From contig NZ_JAUNDY010000010.1 of the NCBI RefSeq assembly GCF_030525845.1, forward strand, positions 1 through 55,267: a stretch of 55,267 nt of DNA, written 5' to 3'. The position numbers and the translations under genes were made by a program. Positions 6,356-54,755 of this stretch are shown here, piece by piece (the stretch's first letter is position 1; each line of letters starts with the position of its first letter). Under the pieces are notes generated by a model that made no database searches, was not told the origin of the DNA, and saw only the letters and a list, made by a program, of their open reading frames with translations. This DNA comes from Moraxella sp. Its GTDB lineage: Bacteria > Pseudomonadota > Gammaproteobacteria > Pseudomonadales > Moraxellaceae.

Positions 6356-6757
6356 TCAGTTATCCAAATCATTAAAGCACGACAAAAAGGAAGCATTGAC
6401 CGCTTGACTGATAAAGCTCTCTTTATCTTCTCGGTCGTCATAGACAGGCATTTTGTAGATGACGCTTAGTCCATTATTCCAAGTCTCATCAATAAACGCC
6501 ACCAAATCTTGATCCTTAAAATTTTTTTCGATTTTTTTGAGTTCTTTGGCAAGATTTTTTTTGGCCTTTTCTTTGTCCACGCCATTTTGACGGTCAATCG
6601 CCATCTCATACACGCCACTACTGGCAAGCATGCAGATACCTGCGATTTCTTCTTGTCTAATTTCTTCATCAGCTGATAGCACCAATGCCGAATGTGCCAC
6701 ACCTGATATGCCTAGCACAGCAAGCAGGACAAATGTTTTTTGACGTAGTTTATGCAT
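6356..6757 (-). CDS. Small secreted protein of unknown function
   Basis: I do not recognise this protein of about 133 residues. I chose the ATG at 6757, with GGA six bases upstream, because it places a good Sec signal peptide at the N-terminus (MHKLRQKTFVLLAVLGISG then AHSA). A longer frame upstream would bury that signal. The mature part is charged and helix-rich, with a Lys-rich stretch (KEKAKKNLAKELKKIEK) that could form a coiled coil, and two cysteines that could form a periplasmic disulfide. It follows nudC on the same strand after 67 bases. Confidence 0.65.
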   Translation of the reverse strand: MHKLRQKTFVLLAVLGISGVAHSALVLSADEEIRQEEIAGICMLASSGVYEMAIDRQNGVDKEKAKKNLAKELKKIEKNFKDQDLVAFIDETWNNGLSVIYKMPVYDDREDKESFISQAVNASFLSCFNDLDN

Positions 6758-38227: not shown

Positions 38228-41044
38228 TTAGCGAAATGGCGAACCAATAAAAAAGTGCAACTTAATGGAAGTATCAGGCTCATTAATGCCAGTCGCCACA
38301 TCAAGTCGCACTTGCCCCACAGGAGAGGCATAACGCACGCCCACGCCTGCACCGATTTTGGTGTCGTTTTTAAAATTCTCATCATAGGCATTACCCACAT
38401 CAGAAAACAAAGCAAGCCTAAGCCCCTCCAACACCTCGTAGTTGTACTCAGCACTTGCCACCGCCAAAGCCTGACCGCCCATCAAATAGCCCTTATCAGA
38501 TAAAGGTGATAGACTGTCGTGATTGTAGCCACGAATGCTTTGGTCGCCCCCTGCAAAAAACCGCAGTTTATAAGGCACATCACCAAAATCATCTGCCCAC
38601 AAATAGCCCATATTGATGCTACCAATCAGCTGATGTTTGCGATTTTTGCCATAGGCGTTATCGCCAAAACTGTACACGCCACTTAGCCCCGCTCGCAAAA
38701 TCGCCATGTTGGTATCGGTCAGTAATCCTTCTTTGGCAAGCTCCAAAGAATAGTACTGGCGGTAGCCTCGCATGGGGTTTGCTAGGTTATCTGCCTTGAT
38801 TTTATTCATGGCATAGCCCAAAAGCAATGCCTCTTGGGTGGGACGACCACTTTCAAATTTGACAGGCAAGTCCTGCCATGTCTCACGTGGTGCTTGGGTT
38901 TGGAGCTTATCCAAGCGATAACGAAGTGAATAAGTGCGATTCCAGCCATTTTCTTTGATGATATTACGGCTTATCCCCGTCTCTAAGGTCTGGCTAGATA
39001 GCTTAAAATTACCAATGCCTTGATTGATTTTTTCGTCAGAATACCTCAGCGAGGCTTTTAACTTGTCATTTAATGGGTGCGACATCGGACGTGTGATGTA
39101 TACCTCCGCCCCTTTGGTTTTTTGGGAGATGCTAGTATCTATGCCTGCTTGCATGCCATCACGATTAAGCAGATGATGCTCCACTTTGGTTAAAAGTCTC
39201 GCCCCATTATCAGACCCCCAACCCACACCGATTTGGGCATCTCTTGGTTTATCGGACAGCACAAAAATGTACAATGGTACTTTTTTATCCTGATAAACCT
39301 CCTCGCCCAACTTGCGTCCTGCCAACACAGGTGGTTCTTCGCCGTCTGCCAGAGTTGGCAACACATCGCCTGACTCATCAGGCAGTATCATCTTGGCGAC
39401 ACTACTAACCGCATCGGAGATACGCCCCAAAATGCTTTTTGATTTGGCACTACTATCCACCACAAGCAAGCGGTCATCTGGGGCTTGGTATAGCTGTTCG
39501 GCTTTTTGTTTGACAAGCGAGAGCTTATCGCTGATTAACTCACTTGTGGTAAAATCAATAGGGTCAATTGTGGCAACCACGCCCTCTCCCAAATCCACCA
39601 CCTCCGCCATGCCGGTATCCGCCTCGCTAGGCAAGCTCTCAAACGTGATACGTTCTTCGTTTTGACTGGGGAATACAACTTCGGTATTTACCGCATTAAA
39701 ATACCCTGTTGCCAAAAGGTTGTTACTAAGGTTACGCACAGCGGTGCGATTATAAGCATCTCCCATATTAAACGTAACCAATTTACGCAACACCTCAGGC
39801 TTGACAGGCAATTTATCAGGGTCAGCGGTCAGTTGGCGTGTATCAGGGTCAATGGTAAAAAACACCACTTCATCAAATAAATACTGCTCGCCTGTGTCAT
39901 AGACCAAACTCACATCTGCCACGTTATCAGGCAAGACCACATCTACCGAATGGTTGAGCCACCGCCCATCAAAATAGCCATGCTCGCCACTAGTCTCATC
40001 AATAAGGCTTTTATTCGCCTCGTATTTGCCATGATGAAAAACCCCTCCTTGTCCAAGCGGTGCATTTACTACGGCATTGGTATATACTAGATTGTCAGCA
40101 CCCTGTCCACGCACATCAATGACCGACATATCCACCATCACAGGCTTGCCCACATCGTGCATGACAAGGTTTATCTCCCCCGCCGCCTCTCTTTCAATGC
40201 TAAAACTAATGTCATAATAACCAACCGCCCTCGCTGCACTAAGCACCGTCTGCCTAAGACGTGCCACAGACTCACGAAAATCAAGTACGCTATCTGCTTC
40301 GATTTCTTGCAATGCGCTGCGAATGTTGGCAAAAGGCTCGGTATTTAGGAGGGATTTTGGGATTTTTTCGGTGTTGTCGGTCGCTTTGAGGTTTTGTTGT
40401 TGTTTTTGCTCCATCTTGGCACGAAGTTTTGCAAACCCATCTAGGTCGCTAACCGCCGTATCCCAGTCTAATCGCTCACCACCTTGATAAAAATTCACTT
40501 TTAGACGCTCGCTAGCTGCCATGCCGTCATTAAATAAATGATTATACGCACGCCTAAAAAGATTGGGCTGTTTAAGCTCGTCCACCACATGATTGGTGGA
40601 AGTTGGCACAGGCTGTTCTTCATACTGATAATCTGGTAAATAATCATCAACATCAAGCGTCTGAACCTGCCCATCGTCGATTTTGGCGACCATCTGCTCA
40701 TAAGTAGGCAAGCTAGACAACGCCACCTCATCAAGCCCTGTTGGGGTCTGCCCCCCATCGATGATGGCGATGTTTCCCTGCTCAATCTTAGCAAATTCAT
40801 CTTCTCGGCTAGTGTCATCGTATTCTACATCAGCAACCTGATAAAAATAACCATCTGTATCAGCCTGTTCTAATTTTTGCTCGATTCGCTCTATGGTGGA
40901 CATGCCAGAGGCGGTCATATCCTGCCAATCATCTAAGTTAGTCGATTGTGTATATGTTATCGCCTCGTCAGCGAACAAAGGCGTACTAGCCCCCATCGCA
41001 GACATCAAGCACAAAGATAACGCAGTTTTGGCAAATTGAGACAT
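38228..41044 (-). CDS. tamA: Outer-membrane assembly protein TamA with large insertion
   Basis: TamA is an Omp85-family outer-membrane protein, the partner of TamB. The 938-residue protein has a signal peptide (about 1-26), POTRA domains in the first two thirds, and a C-terminal 16-strand barrel with GGDQSIRGYNHDSLSP and a terminal FIGSPFR strand. E. coli TamA is 577 residues. The extra length is an acidic N-terminal region of about 200 residues and an insertion of about 130 residues between TEVVFPSQ and VPLYIFVLSDKPRDAQIG, which interrupts the last POTRA domain. tamB follows on the same strand. Confidence 0.93.
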   Translation of the reverse strand: MSQFAKTALSLCLMSAMGASTPLFADEAITYTQSTNLDDWQDMTASGMSTIERIEQKLEQADTDGYFYQVADVEYDDTSREDEFAKIEQGNIAIIDGGQTPTGLDEVALSSLPTYEQMVAKIDDGQVQTLDVDDYLPDYQYEEQPVPTSTNHVVDELKQPNLFRRAYNHLFNDGMAASERLKVNFYQGGERLDWDTAVSDLDGFAKLRAKMEQKQQQNLKATDNTEKIPKSLLNTEPFANIRSALQEIEADSVLDFRESVARLRQTVLSAARAVGYYDISFSIEREAAGEINLVMHDVGKPVMVDMSVIDVRGQGADNLVYTNAVVNAPLGQGGVFHHGKYEANKSLIDETSGEHGYFDGRWLNHSVDVVLPDNVADVSLVYDTGEQYLFDEVVFFTIDPDTRQLTADPDKLPVKPEVLRKLVTFNMGDAYNRTAVRNLSNNLLATGYFNAVNTEVVFPSQNEERITFESLPSEADTGMAEVVDLGEGVVATIDPIDFTTSELISDKLSLVKQKAEQLYQAPDDRLLVVDSSAKSKSILGRISDAVSSVAKMILPDESGDVLPTLADGEEPPVLAGRKLGEEVYQDKKVPLYIFVLSDKPRDAQIGVGWGSDNGARLLTKVEHHLLNRDGMQAGIDTSISQKTKGAEVYITRPMSHPLNDKLKASLRYSDEKINQGIGNFKLSSQTLETGISRNIIKENGWNRTYSLRYRLDKLQTQAPRETWQDLPVKFESGRPTQEALLLGYAMNKIKADNLANPMRGYRQYYSLELAKEGLLTDTNMAILRAGLSGVYSFGDNAYGKNRKHQLIGSINMGYLWADDFGDVPYKLRFFAGGDQSIRGYNHDSLSPLSDKGYLMGGQALAVASAEYNYEVLEGLRLALFSDVGNAYDENFKNDTKIGAGVGVRYASPVGQVRLDVATGINEPDTSIKLHFFIGSPFR

Positions 41045-47381: not shown

Positions 47382-47666
47382 CCATCATCGAATGATAGAC
47401 TTGCAATATTTGATAAATTTGACAGTTGCACTAATGCTTTTCACAAGAATTTTCCCCATCGCAACCAGTATTTTTTTATTTTTACCAATTTTTAAACAAA
47501 ATCATCATGACTTTCCACTGGGTAATTATTTTAAAATAGATGTTTACACCATTATTTAATATCATAAGGCAAAAACAAAAAAAAGAACATTACAGATTTT
47601 TGGAAGTTGATTTAATAAAAAACAAAACCCAGCCTTAGCTGAGTTTTATTCTTTAATCGCCAACAA
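47382..47666. terminator. Intergenic region with the terminator of the flavin reductase gene
   Basis: Between convergent nadK and the flavin reductase gene. AAAACCCAGC pairs with GCTGAGTTTT (47624-47647), with T-rich DNA after it on the minus strand, so this hairpin ends the mes operon. I see no gene here. Confidence 0.7.
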
Positions 47667-48140
47667 TCAAACACTATGATACCCACGATTGCGATAAATC
47701 AACGCCTTTTCATCATTACCCTGACGAATACCGACAATCTCACAAATCAAAATGGCGTGCGTGCCGACTTGTTTAATGTCTGAGATCTTACAATCAAAGC
47801 CAATCAAGGCATTGCTTAGCATTGGCGAACCTGTCGTCAAAGTCGTCCAGCTTGCTTTGGCAAAACGCTCTTCGGAAGTGAGTGGCGACGCAAAGGCATT
47901 GGACAGTTCGGACTGCTCAGCGGTTAGTGTATTGACCGCAAGCACGCCATTTTTGACAAAATTGTCATAAAAACGAATGCCTGCATTCATACATACCAAA
48001 AGCGTGGGCGGTGAGTCGGTTACGCTACACACCGCAGAGGCGGTAAAGCCATAACGACCATGCTCGCCATCGGTGGTTACGACGTGGACGGCGGTGGCAA
48101 GCTGTGCCATTGCGTCCTTAAACGCTTGTATTTCTACCAT
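47667..48140 (-). CDS. Flavin reductase family protein
   Basis: This 157-residue protein is an FMN-binding split-barrel flavin reductase (HpaC/RutF type) that would reduce free flavin with NAD(P)H. The conserved start FKDAMAQLATAVHVVTTDGE, the TASAVCSVTDSPPTLLVCMN block and the C-terminal GYHSV are present. I chose the ATG at 48140, with GGGGCGGA upstream. It starts 11 bases after the MesD stop, so it is co-transcribed with a methionine synthase. A reduced flavin could supply electrons to MesX or MesD, an inference. Confidence 0.87.
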   Translation of the reverse strand: MVEIQAFKDAMAQLATAVHVVTTDGEHGRYGFTASAVCSVTDSPPTLLVCMNAGIRFYDNFVKNGVLAVNTLTAEQSELSNAFASPLTSEERFAKASWTTLTTGSPMLSNALIGFDCKISDIKQVGTHAILICEIVGIRQGNDEKALIYRNRGYHSV

Positions 48141-48151
48141 ATCCGCCCCAA

Positions 48152-49183
48152 TTATTTGCCAAGTTCTGCACGCAAAATGCTCGCTCCTTGTGCAAGAGCA
48201 TTCAATTTGCCGCGAGCCACGGTGCGAGATAGCGGAGCCATACCGCAGTTGGTGCAAGGGTAGAGATTTTCAGCGTCCACGAATTTGAGTGCTTTACGCA
48301 AAGTGTCCGCCACTTGCTCTGGCGTTTCGATTTCATTGGTCGCCACATCAATCGCCCCAAGCATGACTTTTTTGCCACGCACCAGCTCAATCAAATCCAT
48401 TGGCACTTTGGAGTTTTGGCATTCTAGCGAAATGATGTCAATTTTGGATTTTTGTAGGAGCGGGAAACTCTCTTCGTATTGACGCCACTCTGAGCCAAGC
48501 GTTTGTTTCCAATCAGTATTTGCCTTAATGCCATAGCCATAGCAAATATGTACGGCGGTTTGGCATTTTAACCCTTCTACCGCACGCTCTAAGGCGGCAA
48601 TACCCCAATCGTTTAGCTCATCAAAAAACACATTAAAGGCAGGCTCATCAAACTGGATAATGTCCACGCCAACCGCTTCTAGTTCTTTGGCTTCTTCATT
48701 CAAAATTTTGGCAAATTCCCACGCCAGCTTCTCACGGCTTTTGTAATGTCCGTCATAAAGCGTGTCAATCATTGTCATCGGGCCAGGCAACGCCCATTTG
48801 ATGAGTTTATCCGTATGCCCACGCAAAAATTTGGCATCGTCCACAAATACTGATTTTGGACGAGAGACATCGCCTACCACGCTTGGCACGGACGCATCAT
48901 AGCGGTTGCGAATACGGACGGTTTCTCGTTTGTTAAAGTCCACCCCGTCCAAATGCTCAATAAAAGTCGTTACAAAATGCTGACGGGTCTGCTCACCGTC
49001 ACTGACAATGTCAATACCTGCATTCACTTGCTCGGCAAGCGAGACCAAAAGAGCATCTTGTTTGGCTTGTAATAATTCTTCGCCTTCAAATTTCCAAGGC
49101 GACCATAACTTTTCAGGTTCGGCAAGCCAAGACGGTTTTGGCAAACTGCCCGCGGTAGAAGTGGGAAGTAAAATGTTGCTCAT
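48152..49183 (-). CDS. mesD: MetE-core, folate-independent-type methionine synthase MesD
   Basis: This 343-residue protein corresponds to the C-terminal catalytic barrel of cobalamin-independent methionine synthase MetE. It keeps all four zinc/homocysteine ligands: His212 and Cys214 in VHICYG, Glu254 in SLECQ, and Cys313 in TNCGMAP. It lacks the N-terminal MetE domain that holds methyl-tetrahydrofolate polyglutamate. With the DUF1852 gene upstream and a flavin reductase downstream, it matches the MesD family, as I recall shown in Acinetobacter to make methionine with MesX in an oxygen-dependent manner and without folate. The methyl donor is not known. GGAA precedes the start. Confidence 0.85.
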   Translation of the reverse strand: MSNILLPTSTAGSLPKPSWLAEPEKLWSPWKFEGEELLQAKQDALLVSLAEQVNAGIDIVSDGEQTRQHFVTTFIEHLDGVDFNKRETVRIRNRYDASVPSVVGDVSRPKSVFVDDAKFLRGHTDKLIKWALPGPMTMIDTLYDGHYKSREKLAWEFAKILNEEAKELEAVGVDIIQFDEPAFNVFFDELNDWGIAALERAVEGLKCQTAVHICYGYGIKANTDWKQTLGSEWRQYEESFPLLQKSKIDIISLECQNSKVPMDLIELVRGKKVMLGAIDVATNEIETPEQVADTLRKALKFVDAENLYPCTNCGMAPLSRTVARGKLNALAQGASILRAELGK

Positions 49184-49333
49184 AATTTATTCCAATTTAA
49201 AATATTTTCTACAAAAGTTTTAAAAATTTATTTATAGAAAATTTAATGTTAAAATTCTTACTTATTATATCCAAAAAATTTAAAAATTAACAGATATTTT
49301 TTAAATTTAATAAATATAATTTGTCCTAAAATT

Positions 49334-49366
49334 AAATCAGCCGAGCTTATTATCATCGGCTGATTT
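49334..49366 (-). terminator. Hairpin between mesX and mesD
   Basis: AAATCAGCCGA and TCGGCTGATTT form a perfect 11-bp stem just past the mesX stop codon. The T tract on the minus strand is weak, so it may be a partial terminator that lowers mesD expression. Confidence 0.65.
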
Positions 49367-49381
49367 TATGAATGCAATCTA

Positions 49382-50356
49382 TTATTCATTTACCCAAGCG
49401 GTTAAAATATCTTGGTATGGTTTAATAAATTGCTCTTGGGTAAGTTTGCCTTGTTTGATAGCAAGTTCAGTACGCTCAACACGGTCATATTCAACACGAG
49501 TTAGCGAATAATCATCATAAGTCAAACTACCCTTATAAGTTTGACCTGCCACCGAATTGGCATTATAAATCTCTGGACGATAAATCTTTTGGAAAGCTTC
49601 CATAGTTGCAATGGTACCGATAAGTTCCAAATTGGTATAATCGTTTAACAAATCTGCCGTTTCATCATAATAAAACGCATAAGGGGCAACCGAACCTTGT
49701 GGCATAAAGTAACGCACTTTTAAGCCCATTTTGGCAAAATATTCATCAGTCAATGAATAATCATTTTGCACATATTCCACGCCTAAAATGGGGTGGGTGT
49801 TGGTGGTGCGATGATAAGTGCGAGTGGTCGCCACACTTAGGCATAATACAGGTGGCTTTTCATTACGAGCTTTGTATTCTGGCGAATCAAGCAAATATTT
49901 GTATAATTTACCGTGCAAATCGCCATAGCCTTTTGGTACAGTAAATTCTGGTTTGTCTTTATTATAATCAAGCAATAATACACTAAAATCATAATCACGG
50001 ACAAATGACGAAAAACTATTACCAATAATGCCGTCAATTTTTTTGCCAGTTTTATTATCAATAATATAAGTTTTTAACCATTCAAGACCAGAAAAATATT
50101 CGCCCTTGCCTGCCACGTCAATATCAATGGAGACAATTTCCAATTTGACCGAATAGCGGTCGGCATTTGGATTGTCCCAACGTGCCAAATCATTAAAGCG
50201 GTTGTTAATCATCGCAATGGCATTTAATAAATTTTGTTTGCGGTTTTCGCCACGAGCTAAGTTGGCAAAGTTGGTGGTTAGGCGAGTGCTTTGGGCGGGT
50301 TCATAATTTTCGTTAAAATCCAGCGTATGCACTTTGCATTTGAAGTTTGCAGTCAT
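49382..50356 (-). CDS. mesX: DUF1852 protein MesX, partner of MesD
   Basis: This 324-residue cytosolic protein belongs to DUF1852, named MesX because it is needed with MesD for methionine synthesis in Acinetobacter. The conserved N-terminus starts with MTANFKCKVHTLDFNENYEP, and the tail has YDDYSLTRVEYDRVERTELA. No cofactor motif is obvious from reading. A strong Shine-Dalgarno AAGGAGAG lies eight bases upstream of the start. It precedes mesD by 198 bases that contain a hairpin and AT-rich DNA. The family assignment comes from memory plus the adjacency to the MetE-core gene. Confidence 0.85.
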   Translation of the reverse strand: MTANFKCKVHTLDFNENYEPAQSTRLTTNFANLARGENRKQNLLNAIAMINNRFNDLARWDNPNADRYSVKLEIVSIDIDVAGKGEYFSGLEWLKTYIIDNKTGKKIDGIIGNSFSSFVRDYDFSVLLLDYNKDKPEFTVPKGYGDLHGKLYKYLLDSPEYKARNEKPPVLCLSVATTRTYHRTTNTHPILGVEYVQNDYSLTDEYFAKMGLKVRYFMPQGSVAPYAFYYDETADLLNDYTNLELIGTIATMEAFQKIYRPEIYNANSVAGQTYKGSLTYDDYSLTRVEYDRVERTELAIKQGKLTQEQFIKPYQDILTAWVNE

Positions 50357-52946: not shown

Positions 52947-53795
52947 TTATGCAACTTTTTCTTTATAAAACGGCTCATCGCCAATCACCGTTGCACGGTG
53001 CATAATACGATGAGCATCGCCATAATCAAATAATGCCTTATGCTGAGTCGCCCTATTGTCCCAAATTACCACATCGCCTTCCGCCCATTTGTGGCGGACG
53101 ACAAAGTCATCTTTGATACTGTGGGCGAACAATTTGTCCAAAAGTTCACGGCTTTCGTTCTCACTAAGTCCGTCAATGTGGCTGGTAAAGCCTTCGGTAA
53201 CAAATAAGCACTCTTTGCCCGTCTCAGGGTGGGTGCGGACGACAGGGTGTGATAAGGGTGGATTATTGGCAATGGCTTTTTGCAATTTTTCATCGTCTGC
53301 CTGACTTTGTCCAAAGCGTTCGGCAGGGAAGGATAGGCGAATGTCGTGGGTGGCGGTTTTGCCCCGCAAAAAGTCTTTGGTGTCATCGTCTAAGGCGTCA
53401 AATGCTGAGCTTAGGCTCGCCCACAAGGTGTCGCCCCCAACAGGTGGGATTTTGACCGCACGAAGGACACAGCCAAGCGGGGGCGTTTTGCTAAAAGTAA
53501 CATCGGTGTGCCAAAGCTCGTTGTCTCGTAGGTCGGTTTGGTGGCTGTCAAGGACAATCACTTCTTTGACATCAGGCACGGTGGGGAACACAGGGTGAAT
53601 GTGCAGTTCGCCAAAGGTGCGGGCAAGGGCGACTTGCGACTCGCTGGTCAGATTTTGCCCTTTAAAAAATAGCACTTGGTGCTTTAATAGAGCGTCTTTA
53701 ATCGCTTGGTTATCGCTGTCTGTGAGCTGGTTTAAATCCACGCCAGAGACGGTCGCACCAATGGTAGGCTTAATGGGGGTAACGGTTAGAGTCAT
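52947..53795 (-). CDS. tauD: Taurine dioxygenase TauD
   Basis: TauD uses Fe(II), 2-oxoglutarate and oxygen to split taurine into sulfite and aminoacetaldehyde, supplying sulfur. The 282-residue protein has the iron ligands His96-x-Asp98 in LWHTDVTF and His252 in NRATQHKAL, and the 2-oxoglutarate-binding Arg267 in RIMHRATV. I chose the ATG at 53795, with AAGGAAAT upstream. A possible -10 box, TATAAT on the minus strand at 53832-53827, lies just before it. It follows a sulfate-type ABC ATPase rather than the usual TauABC importer. Confidence 0.9.
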   Translation of the reverse strand: MTLTVTPIKPTIGATVSGVDLNQLTDSDNQAIKDALLKHQVLFFKGQNLTSESQVALARTFGELHIHPVFPTVPDVKEVIVLDSHQTDLRDNELWHTDVTFSKTPPLGCVLRAVKIPPVGGDTLWASLSSAFDALDDDTKDFLRGKTATHDIRLSFPAERFGQSQADDEKLQKAIANNPPLSHPVVRTHPETGKECLFVTEGFTSHIDGLSENESRELLDKLFAHSIKDDFVVRHKWAEGDVVIWDNRATQHKALFDYGDAHRIMHRATVIGDEPFYKEKVA

Positions 53796-53952
53796 TTTTA
53801 TTTCCTTGCAATGGGTTGGTAAATGTATTATAGGAAATGACAATAACTTGATGAAATATTGTTTTTGGTTTTTATTATTCTATTTTTTCATAAAAAAACA
53901 CATGGAATTAGGTTATTCCATAATTTAACATGAATAATGCCAATTTTATTAA

Positions 53953-53987
53953 AAAACCGCTTATTCATAATTAGAATAAGCGGTTTT
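53953..53987 (-). terminator. Bidirectional-type terminator after cysA
   Basis: AAAACCGCTTATTC and GAATAAGCGGTTTT form a perfect 14-bp stem with a 7-base loop. It is 39 bases past the cysA stop codon and separates it from tauD. Confidence 0.9.
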
Positions 53988-54026
53988 AACTAATTAAAAC
54001 GAGGCGATTTTATGATTTAATAATCA

Positions 54027-54755
54027 CTAAATCTGCCAATCTTCCGCCCCAATCTCCAAAAATTCTTTCACAAACGCACTTTGCGGATTACGCACCAGCT
54101 CAACAGGCGTGCCAACCTGCTCCACCACGCCGTGATTCATCACCACAATTTCATCGCTAATCGCTGCCGCTTCTTCTTGATCGTGCGTTACCATAATGCT
54201 GGTGACACCAAGCTCGTGCTGAATGTCTTTTAAAGAACCACGCAGTTCCTTTCGCACCTTAGCGTCCAACGCCCCAAACGGCTCATCAAGCAAAAGTAGC
54301 TTGGGGCTAGTTGCAATCGCCCGTGCCAAAGCAATGCGTTGGCGTTGTCCGCCTGACAATTCGTGCGGATATTTGCCATAAGTGGCAGGCAGTTGCACCA
54401 TTTCTAGTAGTTCTTTGACCCGTTTTTCAATGCTTGCCTTGTCCTTTTTTTGTAATTCCAAGCCAAAAGCAATGTTTTGGGCAACGGTTTTGTGGCGAAA
54501 CAGGGCATAACTTTGAAACACAAAACCGATCCCCCGTTTTTGCACAGGCACATTGGTTACATCTTGTCCGTCAAACAAAATTTGCCCACTATCGGCAATT
54601 TCAAGCCCTGCAATGATACGCAATAAAGTCGTTTTACCACAACCAGAAGGCCCAAGTAGCGTGGTTAATTTGCCTGTGGGGACGCTGATATTGATATTGT
54701 CAAGGGCGACAAATTGATTAAAGCGTTTGTTAATTTGAATAATGTCAATGCTCAT
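54027..54755 (-). CDS. cysA: Sulfate/thiosulfate-type ABC transporter ATPase CysA, short form
   Basis: This 242-residue ATPase powers an oxyanion importer. Walker A GPSGCGKT (35-42), the Q-loop region [17 protein letters not shown], the signature [14 protein letters not shown] and Walker [20 protein letters not shown] closely follow E. coli CysA. It ends right after the nucleotide-binding domain, whereas E. coli CysA continues to 365 residues with a regulatory C-terminal domain. No frameshift is visible after the stop. It is preceded by CysW (119-base gap) on the same strand. Aliphatic sulfonate import (SsuB-like) is an alternative role. Confidence 0.83.

Follow-up and report, generated by a model that had tools for sequence, protein, structure and literature searches.

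The window analysed here, a stretch of 55,267 nucleotides from Moraxella sp. (assembly GCF_030525845.1, contig NZ_JAUNDY010000010.1), carries three neighbouring minus-strand genes of a putative methionine synthesis system, see Table 1. They are transcribed in the order mesX, mesD and flavin reductase gene. An initial annotation, made from the sequence alone, had named all three, and they are confirmed as open reading frames with matching family profiles, as is the spacing of 11 bases (48141–48151) between mesD and the reductase gene. The same annotation had described the three genes as one operon. This is safe only for mesD and the reductase gene, since mesX is set off from mesD by 198 bases containing a hairpin and a TATAAT-like element.

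Table 1. Features of the mesX–mesD–flavin reductase locus in the window.
Feature	Position	Strand	Remarks
mesX (DUF1852, PF08908 'Putative oxygenase MesX')	49382–50356	minus	324 aa; PF08908 548.9 bits (cut-off 25)
mesD, folate-independent core methionine synthase	48152–49183	minus	343 aa; PF01717 only, residues 6–332
Flavin reductase (PF01613)	47667–48140, ATG at 48140	minus	157 aa; 129.5 bits (cut-off 27)
Terminator-like hairpin directly 3' of mesX	49334–49366	minus	fold z -3.63, 0/200 shuffles as good; covarying in Moraxella
Candidate mesD promoter, -10 region (TTTTTGGATATAATA)	49263–49277	minus	TATAAT-like; inferred
Terminator-like hairpin and T-run 3' of the flavin reductase gene	47616–47655	minus	-23.9 kcal/mol, from a fold of the minus strand of 47600–47666 without shuffle control

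MesD corresponds to the catalytic domain of MetE alone. The profile search gives no match to the N-terminal folate domain, PF08267, which agrees with the earlier claim that the folate-binding half is missing; this is the architecture of a core synthase, defined by the catalytic domain only, and not that of the two-domain MetE. The score against NF006589 is 678.9 bits (NCBIfam cut-off 392). The zinc ligands His212, Cys214, Glu254 and Cys313, for which the initial annotation had the exact residue numbers, are invariant in all 157 aligned MesD rows, and the same is true for the homocysteine-site residues S13, E64 and D179. The latter were mapped to Ser22, Glu73 and Asp188 of 3RPD through a sequence alignment, with an inferred numbering offset. 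3RPD, a solved MesD named Methionine synthase (B12-independent), matches residues 3–341 with 633.6 bits. It keeps the zinc and homocysteine residues and differs by sequence divergence only, with no functional difference indicated. Solved MetE chains share the catalytic domain and match at up to 78 bits; however, MetE has the folate domain in addition. A MesD is recognised by adjacency to MesX and more than about 55% identity to ACIAD3523. The window's mesD adjoins the PF08908 gene, as had been annotated, and its product is 84% identical to the MesD of Acinetobacter baylyi DSM 14961 (locus L061), used as a proxy for ACIAD3523.

MesX is a full-length member of its family, matching profile positions 1–322 of 323. 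About 85 positions, by a hand count, are fully invariant in 141 rows, including C172, H148, H188 and E194. The AlphaFold2 model is confident, with a predicted local distance difference test score (pLDDT) of 89.4 and a predicted template modelling score (pTM) of 0.89, and it has no Foldseek match at E<=0.001 among 350,542 PDB chains. No solved relative is found by sequence at E<=10, neither with the single protein nor with a 66-row profile, and no Pfam family other than its own matches at the same threshold. The third protein is, by family match, predicted to be a NAD(P)H:flavin reductase component. It falls below the NCBIfam equivalog cut-offs for both RutF (204.7 against 254.75) and HpaC (154.9 against 205.95), and its closest solved chain is 2R0X (251.4 bits over residues 1–157). 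HpaC- and RutF-type reductases have PF01613 in common with it, but the presumed partner here is MesX and not an aromatic hydroxylase.

The core of this finding, including the flavin reductase link, is already published, and what is new here are the comparative results. The published statements used in this text come from two sources, Price et al. 2021 (PMC7857596) and a 2026 study of Acinetobacter baumannii (PMC12892962). In the former, MesD and MesX were named from A. baylyi, where both are required. For relatives of the window's system it was shown that MesD needs MesX and oxygen, while metF, 5-methyltetrahydrofolate (5-methyl-THF) and vitamin B12 are dispensable. Together mesD and mesX restore E. 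coli strains deleted for metE or metF when oxygen is present, anaerobic rescue having failed, and the pairing of MesD with MesX is strict, in 395 of 399 proteomes. A putative flavin reductase is often encoded near mesD and mesX, another one is named in Sphingomonas, and an oxygenase reaction with reduced flavin is offered as an illustration; the methyl donor was left open in 2021 (PMC7857596). The idea in the initial annotation that reduced flavin or oxygen feeds MesX is thus plausible but not new. In the A. baumannii study, B12 represses the DUF1852 gene in two strains, with log2 changes of -8.33 (AB5075) and -8.07, and in AB5075 also a flavin reductase gene two locus tags away, with -2.52 (PMC12892962). 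The locus tags suggest that this reductase is the mesD neighbour. In the open-licence literature searched, no paper naming the methyl donor, identifying the MesX substrate or solving a MesX structure was found.

Compared with the A. baylyi system of Price et al. (ACIAD3524-3523-3522, MesX–MesD–flavin reductase), the window contains the same three families. At the A. baylyi DSM 14961 locus the gene order is also the same, and MesX, MesD and the reductase are 64%, 84% and 57% identical to those in the window. However, the gap between mesX and mesD is only 20 bases there and has no hairpin, the MesX and MesD of the window belong to a Moraxella/Pasteurellaceae lineage, and no MetH or MetF is found in the genome of the window.

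This genome (G000) is a draft of 44 contigs and 93.65% completeness, and a draft can miss genes. It has no match to PF02219 (MetF), PF08267, PF02965 (MetH activation) or PF02574, and its sole PF01717 match is the mesD of the window; one MesD and one MesX are present. The complete metE or metH that the initial annotation had named as a possible sole active route is therefore absent, as far as a draft of this completeness shows. Two full-length PF01053 enzymes make homocysteine synthesis plausible. From these profile matches, MesX–MesD seems to be the only methionine synthase in the genome, with MetF, MetE and MetH lost.

The same pattern is seen across the genus, where 14 of 22 genomes carry MesX. 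Among these 14, the N-terminal MetE domain is never found, MetF is found in two (G071 and G094) and the MetH activation domain in three (the same two and G086). Nine of the 14 lack the MetE N-terminal domain, MetH activation and PF02574 altogether, although four of the nine (G010, G081, G089 and G100) carry further weak PF01717 matches. Of the eight genomes without MesX, five have MetE, the same five have MetF, and four have MetH activation. Fisher's test, uncorrected for kinship, gives p 0.002 for MesX against MetE and 0.052 against MetF, while the MetH contrast (3/14 vs 4/8) is not significant (p 0.34). Incomplete assembly is of less concern for relatives in a single contig: MetF, the MetE N-terminal domain and MetH activation are likewise missing from G010, G045 and G058, the last of which has one 309-aa PF02574 protein, while G071 keeps MetF and MetH. 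In G086 the MetH domains lie in separate short frames on contig C21 (465 and 272 aa, the activation domain in the latter), as if this MetH were decaying. A further genome of the genus, G052 (single contig, 100% complete), contains neither MesX nor any match to the MetE N-terminal domain, MetH activation, MetF, PF01717, PF02574 or PF01053, and is likely a methionine auxotroph.

We suggest that MesX and MesD form a module in which MesD methylates homocysteine by way of a MesX-linked step using flavin and oxygen, and in which the reductase supplies reduced flavin mononucleotide (FMNH2); we would give this a probability of roughly 60%. MesD would bind homocysteine as a zinc thiolate and methylate it. 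As MesD lacks the folate half, MesX would provide or pass on the methyl group in a step that requires oxygen, with neither 5-methyl-THF nor B12 as its source. FMNH2 for use by MesX with oxygen is most likely produced by the flavin reductase, which would be one of several exchangeable enzymes, hence its linkage to mesD mainly in Moraxellaceae. The reading is supported by sequence anatomy, residue conservation, the absence of matches to the other routes and the distribution of the genes. We infer its three parts, namely a MesX that supplies the methyl group, the use of flavin by MesX and a supply of that flavin by this reductase. The absence of MetF from several MesX lineages fits a donor other than 5-methyl-THF.

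Several observations weigh against this reading, and the first is the distribution of MetF in the whole family. MesX is present in 77 of 119 genomes and MetF in 94, and 59 of the 77 MesX genomes retain MetF. The loss of MetF is thus lineage-specific and there is no general mutual exclusion. The 18 MesX genomes without MetF are 12 of the 14 in the genus of the window and 6 of the 63 elsewhere in the family. This skew would also be expected if MesX replaces MetF, that is, if it were a folate enzyme in disguise which reduces 5,10-methylene-THF with FMNH2 and presents the methyl group to MesD. MetF and the folate half of MetE would then become redundant together and oxygen would be needed only indirectly. 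ThyX and TrmFO offer a precedent for methylene-THF chemistry with reduced flavin. However, any non-folate donor accounts for the loss of MetF equally well, MesX matches no other Pfam family, and the rescue of E. coli failed anaerobically (PMC7857596), when reduced flavin should not have been short. We consider this explanation unlikely.

The second is the limited linkage of the reductase. The order mesX–mesD–reductase is found in 13 of 13 loci of the genus, and with a profile the reductase is detected after mesD, in the same orientation, at 39 of 40 loci of Moraxellaceae (26/27 named and 13/13 Moraxella), a count in which L136, taken as the same genome as L045, duplicates that locus. The only miss is L079, where the contig ends after mesX. 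Outside the Moraxellaceae it is found in only 6 of 53 loci and none is seen in the flank of the other 47; in three of these (L047, L048 and L056) no more than about 200 bases separate mesD from the end of the contig. The profile was built from 44 of the compared loci's own sequences, so many matches arise by construction. In a smaller set, the reductase lies within 1.5 kb flanks in 26 of 30 family loci, and the four misses may be cut off. Among 20 MesX genomes, picked mostly for lacking an adjacent reductase, a match of some kind to the reductase of the window is present in 16 (24–72% identity in the matching rows) and absent from four: G428 Vibrio sinaloensis, G430 Pseudoalteromonas flavipulchra, G431 Vibrio harveyi and G432 Shewanella sp. 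The initial annotation had named a reductase not conserved beside mesD as a refuting condition, and this applies outside Moraxellaceae but not within the family. It had also asked whether the reductase is dispensable, and the rescue of E. coli by mesD and mesX alone (PMC7857596) means that this reductase is not strictly required there.

It could therefore be argued that the reductase is a neighbour kept by descent, with no role in methionine synthesis, serving general FMN reduction or a sulfur-scavenging flavoenzyme, while MesX uses other cofactors. The near confinement of the adjacency to one family, the four genomes without any match and the sufficiency of the two genes in E. coli all favour this. 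However, a host reductase could substitute in E. coli, and B12 represses the flavin reductase gene near mesX along with mesX itself in A. baumannii (PMC12892962). Price et al. name another reductase in Sphingomonas (PMC7857596), and the reductases at the same place in L074, L085 and L099, three of the six outside loci, are diverged (28–30% identical), which looks like independent recruitment. On balance we find the kept-by-descent explanation rather doubtful, though less so than a folate-dependent MesX. Given the linkage limited to Moraxellaceae and the genomes without a match, the reductase probably helps by supplying reduced flavin but can be exchanged for another.

Two further points concern expression and MesX itself. 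The hairpin between mesX and mesD suggests separate transcription, and the two fold changes in A. baumannii AB5075 differ greatly (PMC12892962). Finally, neither the sequence of MesX nor its modelled fold matches any known enzyme that uses flavin or oxygen. The lack of any recognised catalytic family or fold would also suit a MesX that protects or activates MesD, as a redox or metallation partner, with MesD taking its methyl group from a small donor. However, the strict pairing in proteomes (PMC7857596) and the dense conservation look like those of an active site, and such an accessory role appears quite improbable.

The hairpin after mesX is present in 12 of the 14 Moraxella loci examined (the window and L125–L137) as well as in Rappaport israeli (L049), and is not seen in L125 and L134. 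An alignment of 12 rows leaves out these two, L132 (a near-copy of L131) and L136. In it 95.1% of the cells are paired, a value reached by 3 of 500 shuffles; the rows of L127 and L049 are out of register in the inner part of the stem. Four of 12 pairs are changed on both sides (24/500 shuffles reach that), a single shuffle of 500 attains the covariation score, and at most 46% of the cells pair when the partner is slid by one to three columns. The hairpin is followed directly by a T-run and TATAAT in several relatives, and the window's TTTTTGGATATAATA resembles TTTTTTGGTATAATG in the mesX–mesD spacer of several relatives. The bare pattern of TTTTTGGATATAATA is weak, with 3 matches in the window against 0.93 expected, which 4 of 100 shuffles reach. 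The hairpin is likely a terminator of mesX, with a separate promoter for mesD and the reductase gene, to judge from the spacer sequences.

Scans of the whole window gave 5 sigma-70 sites (10.2 in shuffles) and 4 terminators (3.7 in shuffles). The hairpin after mesX is not in the terminator list, probably because of its long loop. Control by a B12 riboswitch was considered and is unsupported: Rfam gave one tRNA only in the window, and one tRNA and no other match in the loci of 11 relatives. Words similar to ATCAGCCGAT occur 12 times in the window with at most one mismatch, against 2.73 expected, two palindromic sites being counted on both strands. Examples are 49355–49364, 6668–6677 and 38625–38634, and the genome may contain a family of terminator-like repeats of which the mesX hairpin is one.

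The lineage of mesX and mesD appears to differ from that of the organism. MesX is 94% identical to that of Moraxella oblonga and 79–83% identical to those of Mannheimia, Lonepinella, Ursidibacter, Actinobacillus indolicus and Rappaport israeli, while the identity to named Acinetobacter and Psychrobacter loci is 62–65%. All trees are quick trees with support from the Shimodaira–Hasegawa-like approximate likelihood ratio test (SH-aLRT) only. The MesX tree contains 142 rows from 166 loci after removal of short, stop-bearing and identical sequences. In this tree the close relatives, from Moraxella, Pasteurellaceae and Cardiobacteriaceae, fall together into a single set of 21 rows (SH-aLRT 98). From another alignment L113 was excluded for a stop codon, and 14 more of 80 related loci were left out of the comparison. 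Constraining Moraxella to group with the other Moraxellaceae is rejected by the approximately unbiased (AU) test both for MesX (p 5.5e-10, 65 rows) and for MesD (p 0.003, 63 rows). The corresponding value for the reductase, p 3.9e-5, was obtained with no more than 5 outside rows and is given no weight here. The mesX–mesD lineage thus appears to group with Pasteurellaceae and not with Acinetobacter or Psychrobacter, pointing to horizontal transfer. The AU test does not reject a single Moraxella clade for MesX (p 0.158), so that neither a donor nor a recipient can be assigned.

There are signs of further events. Rappaport israeli (L049) and Moraxella (L127) have mesX–mesD spacers that are by eye near-identical for much of their length, suggesting that this stretch was transferred recently. 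The MesD of Rappaport israeli lies on a long branch outside the Moraxella–Pasteurellaceae set, while its MesX is placed inside, so the histories of its mesX and mesD may differ. Another pair from Pasteurellaceae (L051 and L054) shows only 66–68% identity in MesX.

MesX was also sought in mobile elements. A phage origin was considered in view of a PHROG family match but is rejected, as only 2 of 50,697 phage records carry MesX. Both are Acinetobacter contigs labelled phage MD-2021a, and a viral contig collection gave 2 loci. Homologues are found in 209 of 72,556 plasmid records, including Pantoea (71) and Acinetobacter (28). Some of the Acinetobacter records are chromosome-sized, but mesX does occur on plasmids. 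The replacement of mesD by another methyltransferase beside an orphan mesX was considered for two Pseudoalteromonas luteoviolacea loci and is rejected, because mesD (75% identity) is found elsewhere in the genome. In the third mesX locus without mesD, L079, the contig stops just after mesX, and its metagenome-assembled genome has no mesD match. In Bowmanella yangjiangensis (G439 contig C24, L069) mesD is in two pieces, each with an internal stop, and the mesX beside it aligns over its full length.

Some neighbouring genes recur. A cluster of TauE/SafE-type permease-like proteins, recognised by eye, lies on either side of mesX/mesD in 29 of the 93 relatives' loci, in different lineages (for example L057, L073, L093 and L113), and a functional link is possible. 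Several loci of Alcaligenaceae, Lysobacteraceae and Alteromonadaceae (for example L056, L065, L083, L104, L119, L121 and L124) have LysR regulators, MetR-like by eye, that are encoded upstream of mesX and oppositely to it. In the window, about 2.6 kb upstream of mesX, a TauD-family dioxygenase that exceeds the NCBIfam cut-off for taurine dioxygenase and an ATP-binding cassette (ABC) transporter ATPase are encoded at 52947–54755, and an amino-acid permease and a gene similar to glutathione S-transferases lie in between. This is a sulfur-scavenging neighbourhood.

To the published system the present analysis adds the case for the absence of MetF, MetE and MetH, the looseness of the reductase linkage, a transfer history and a probable regulatory hairpin. 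It can be speculated, at somewhat less than even odds, that MesX represents a novel kind of enzyme that generates methyl groups with oxygen and has a fold absent from the PDB, and that it frees whole lineages from 5-methyl-THF. MetF, MetE and MetH would then disappear in the genus once mesX–mesD, exchanged horizontally with Pasteurellaceae and Cardiobacteriaceae, is in place. The biochemical targets are narrowed by the exchangeability of the reductase and by the lack of a clear PDB match for the MesX model. The genomes in which no MetF, MetE, MetH or PF02574 protein is detected are natural knock-outs, in which de novo methionine synthesis should depend on MesX, and which are thus clean hosts for isotope tracing of the methyl donor.

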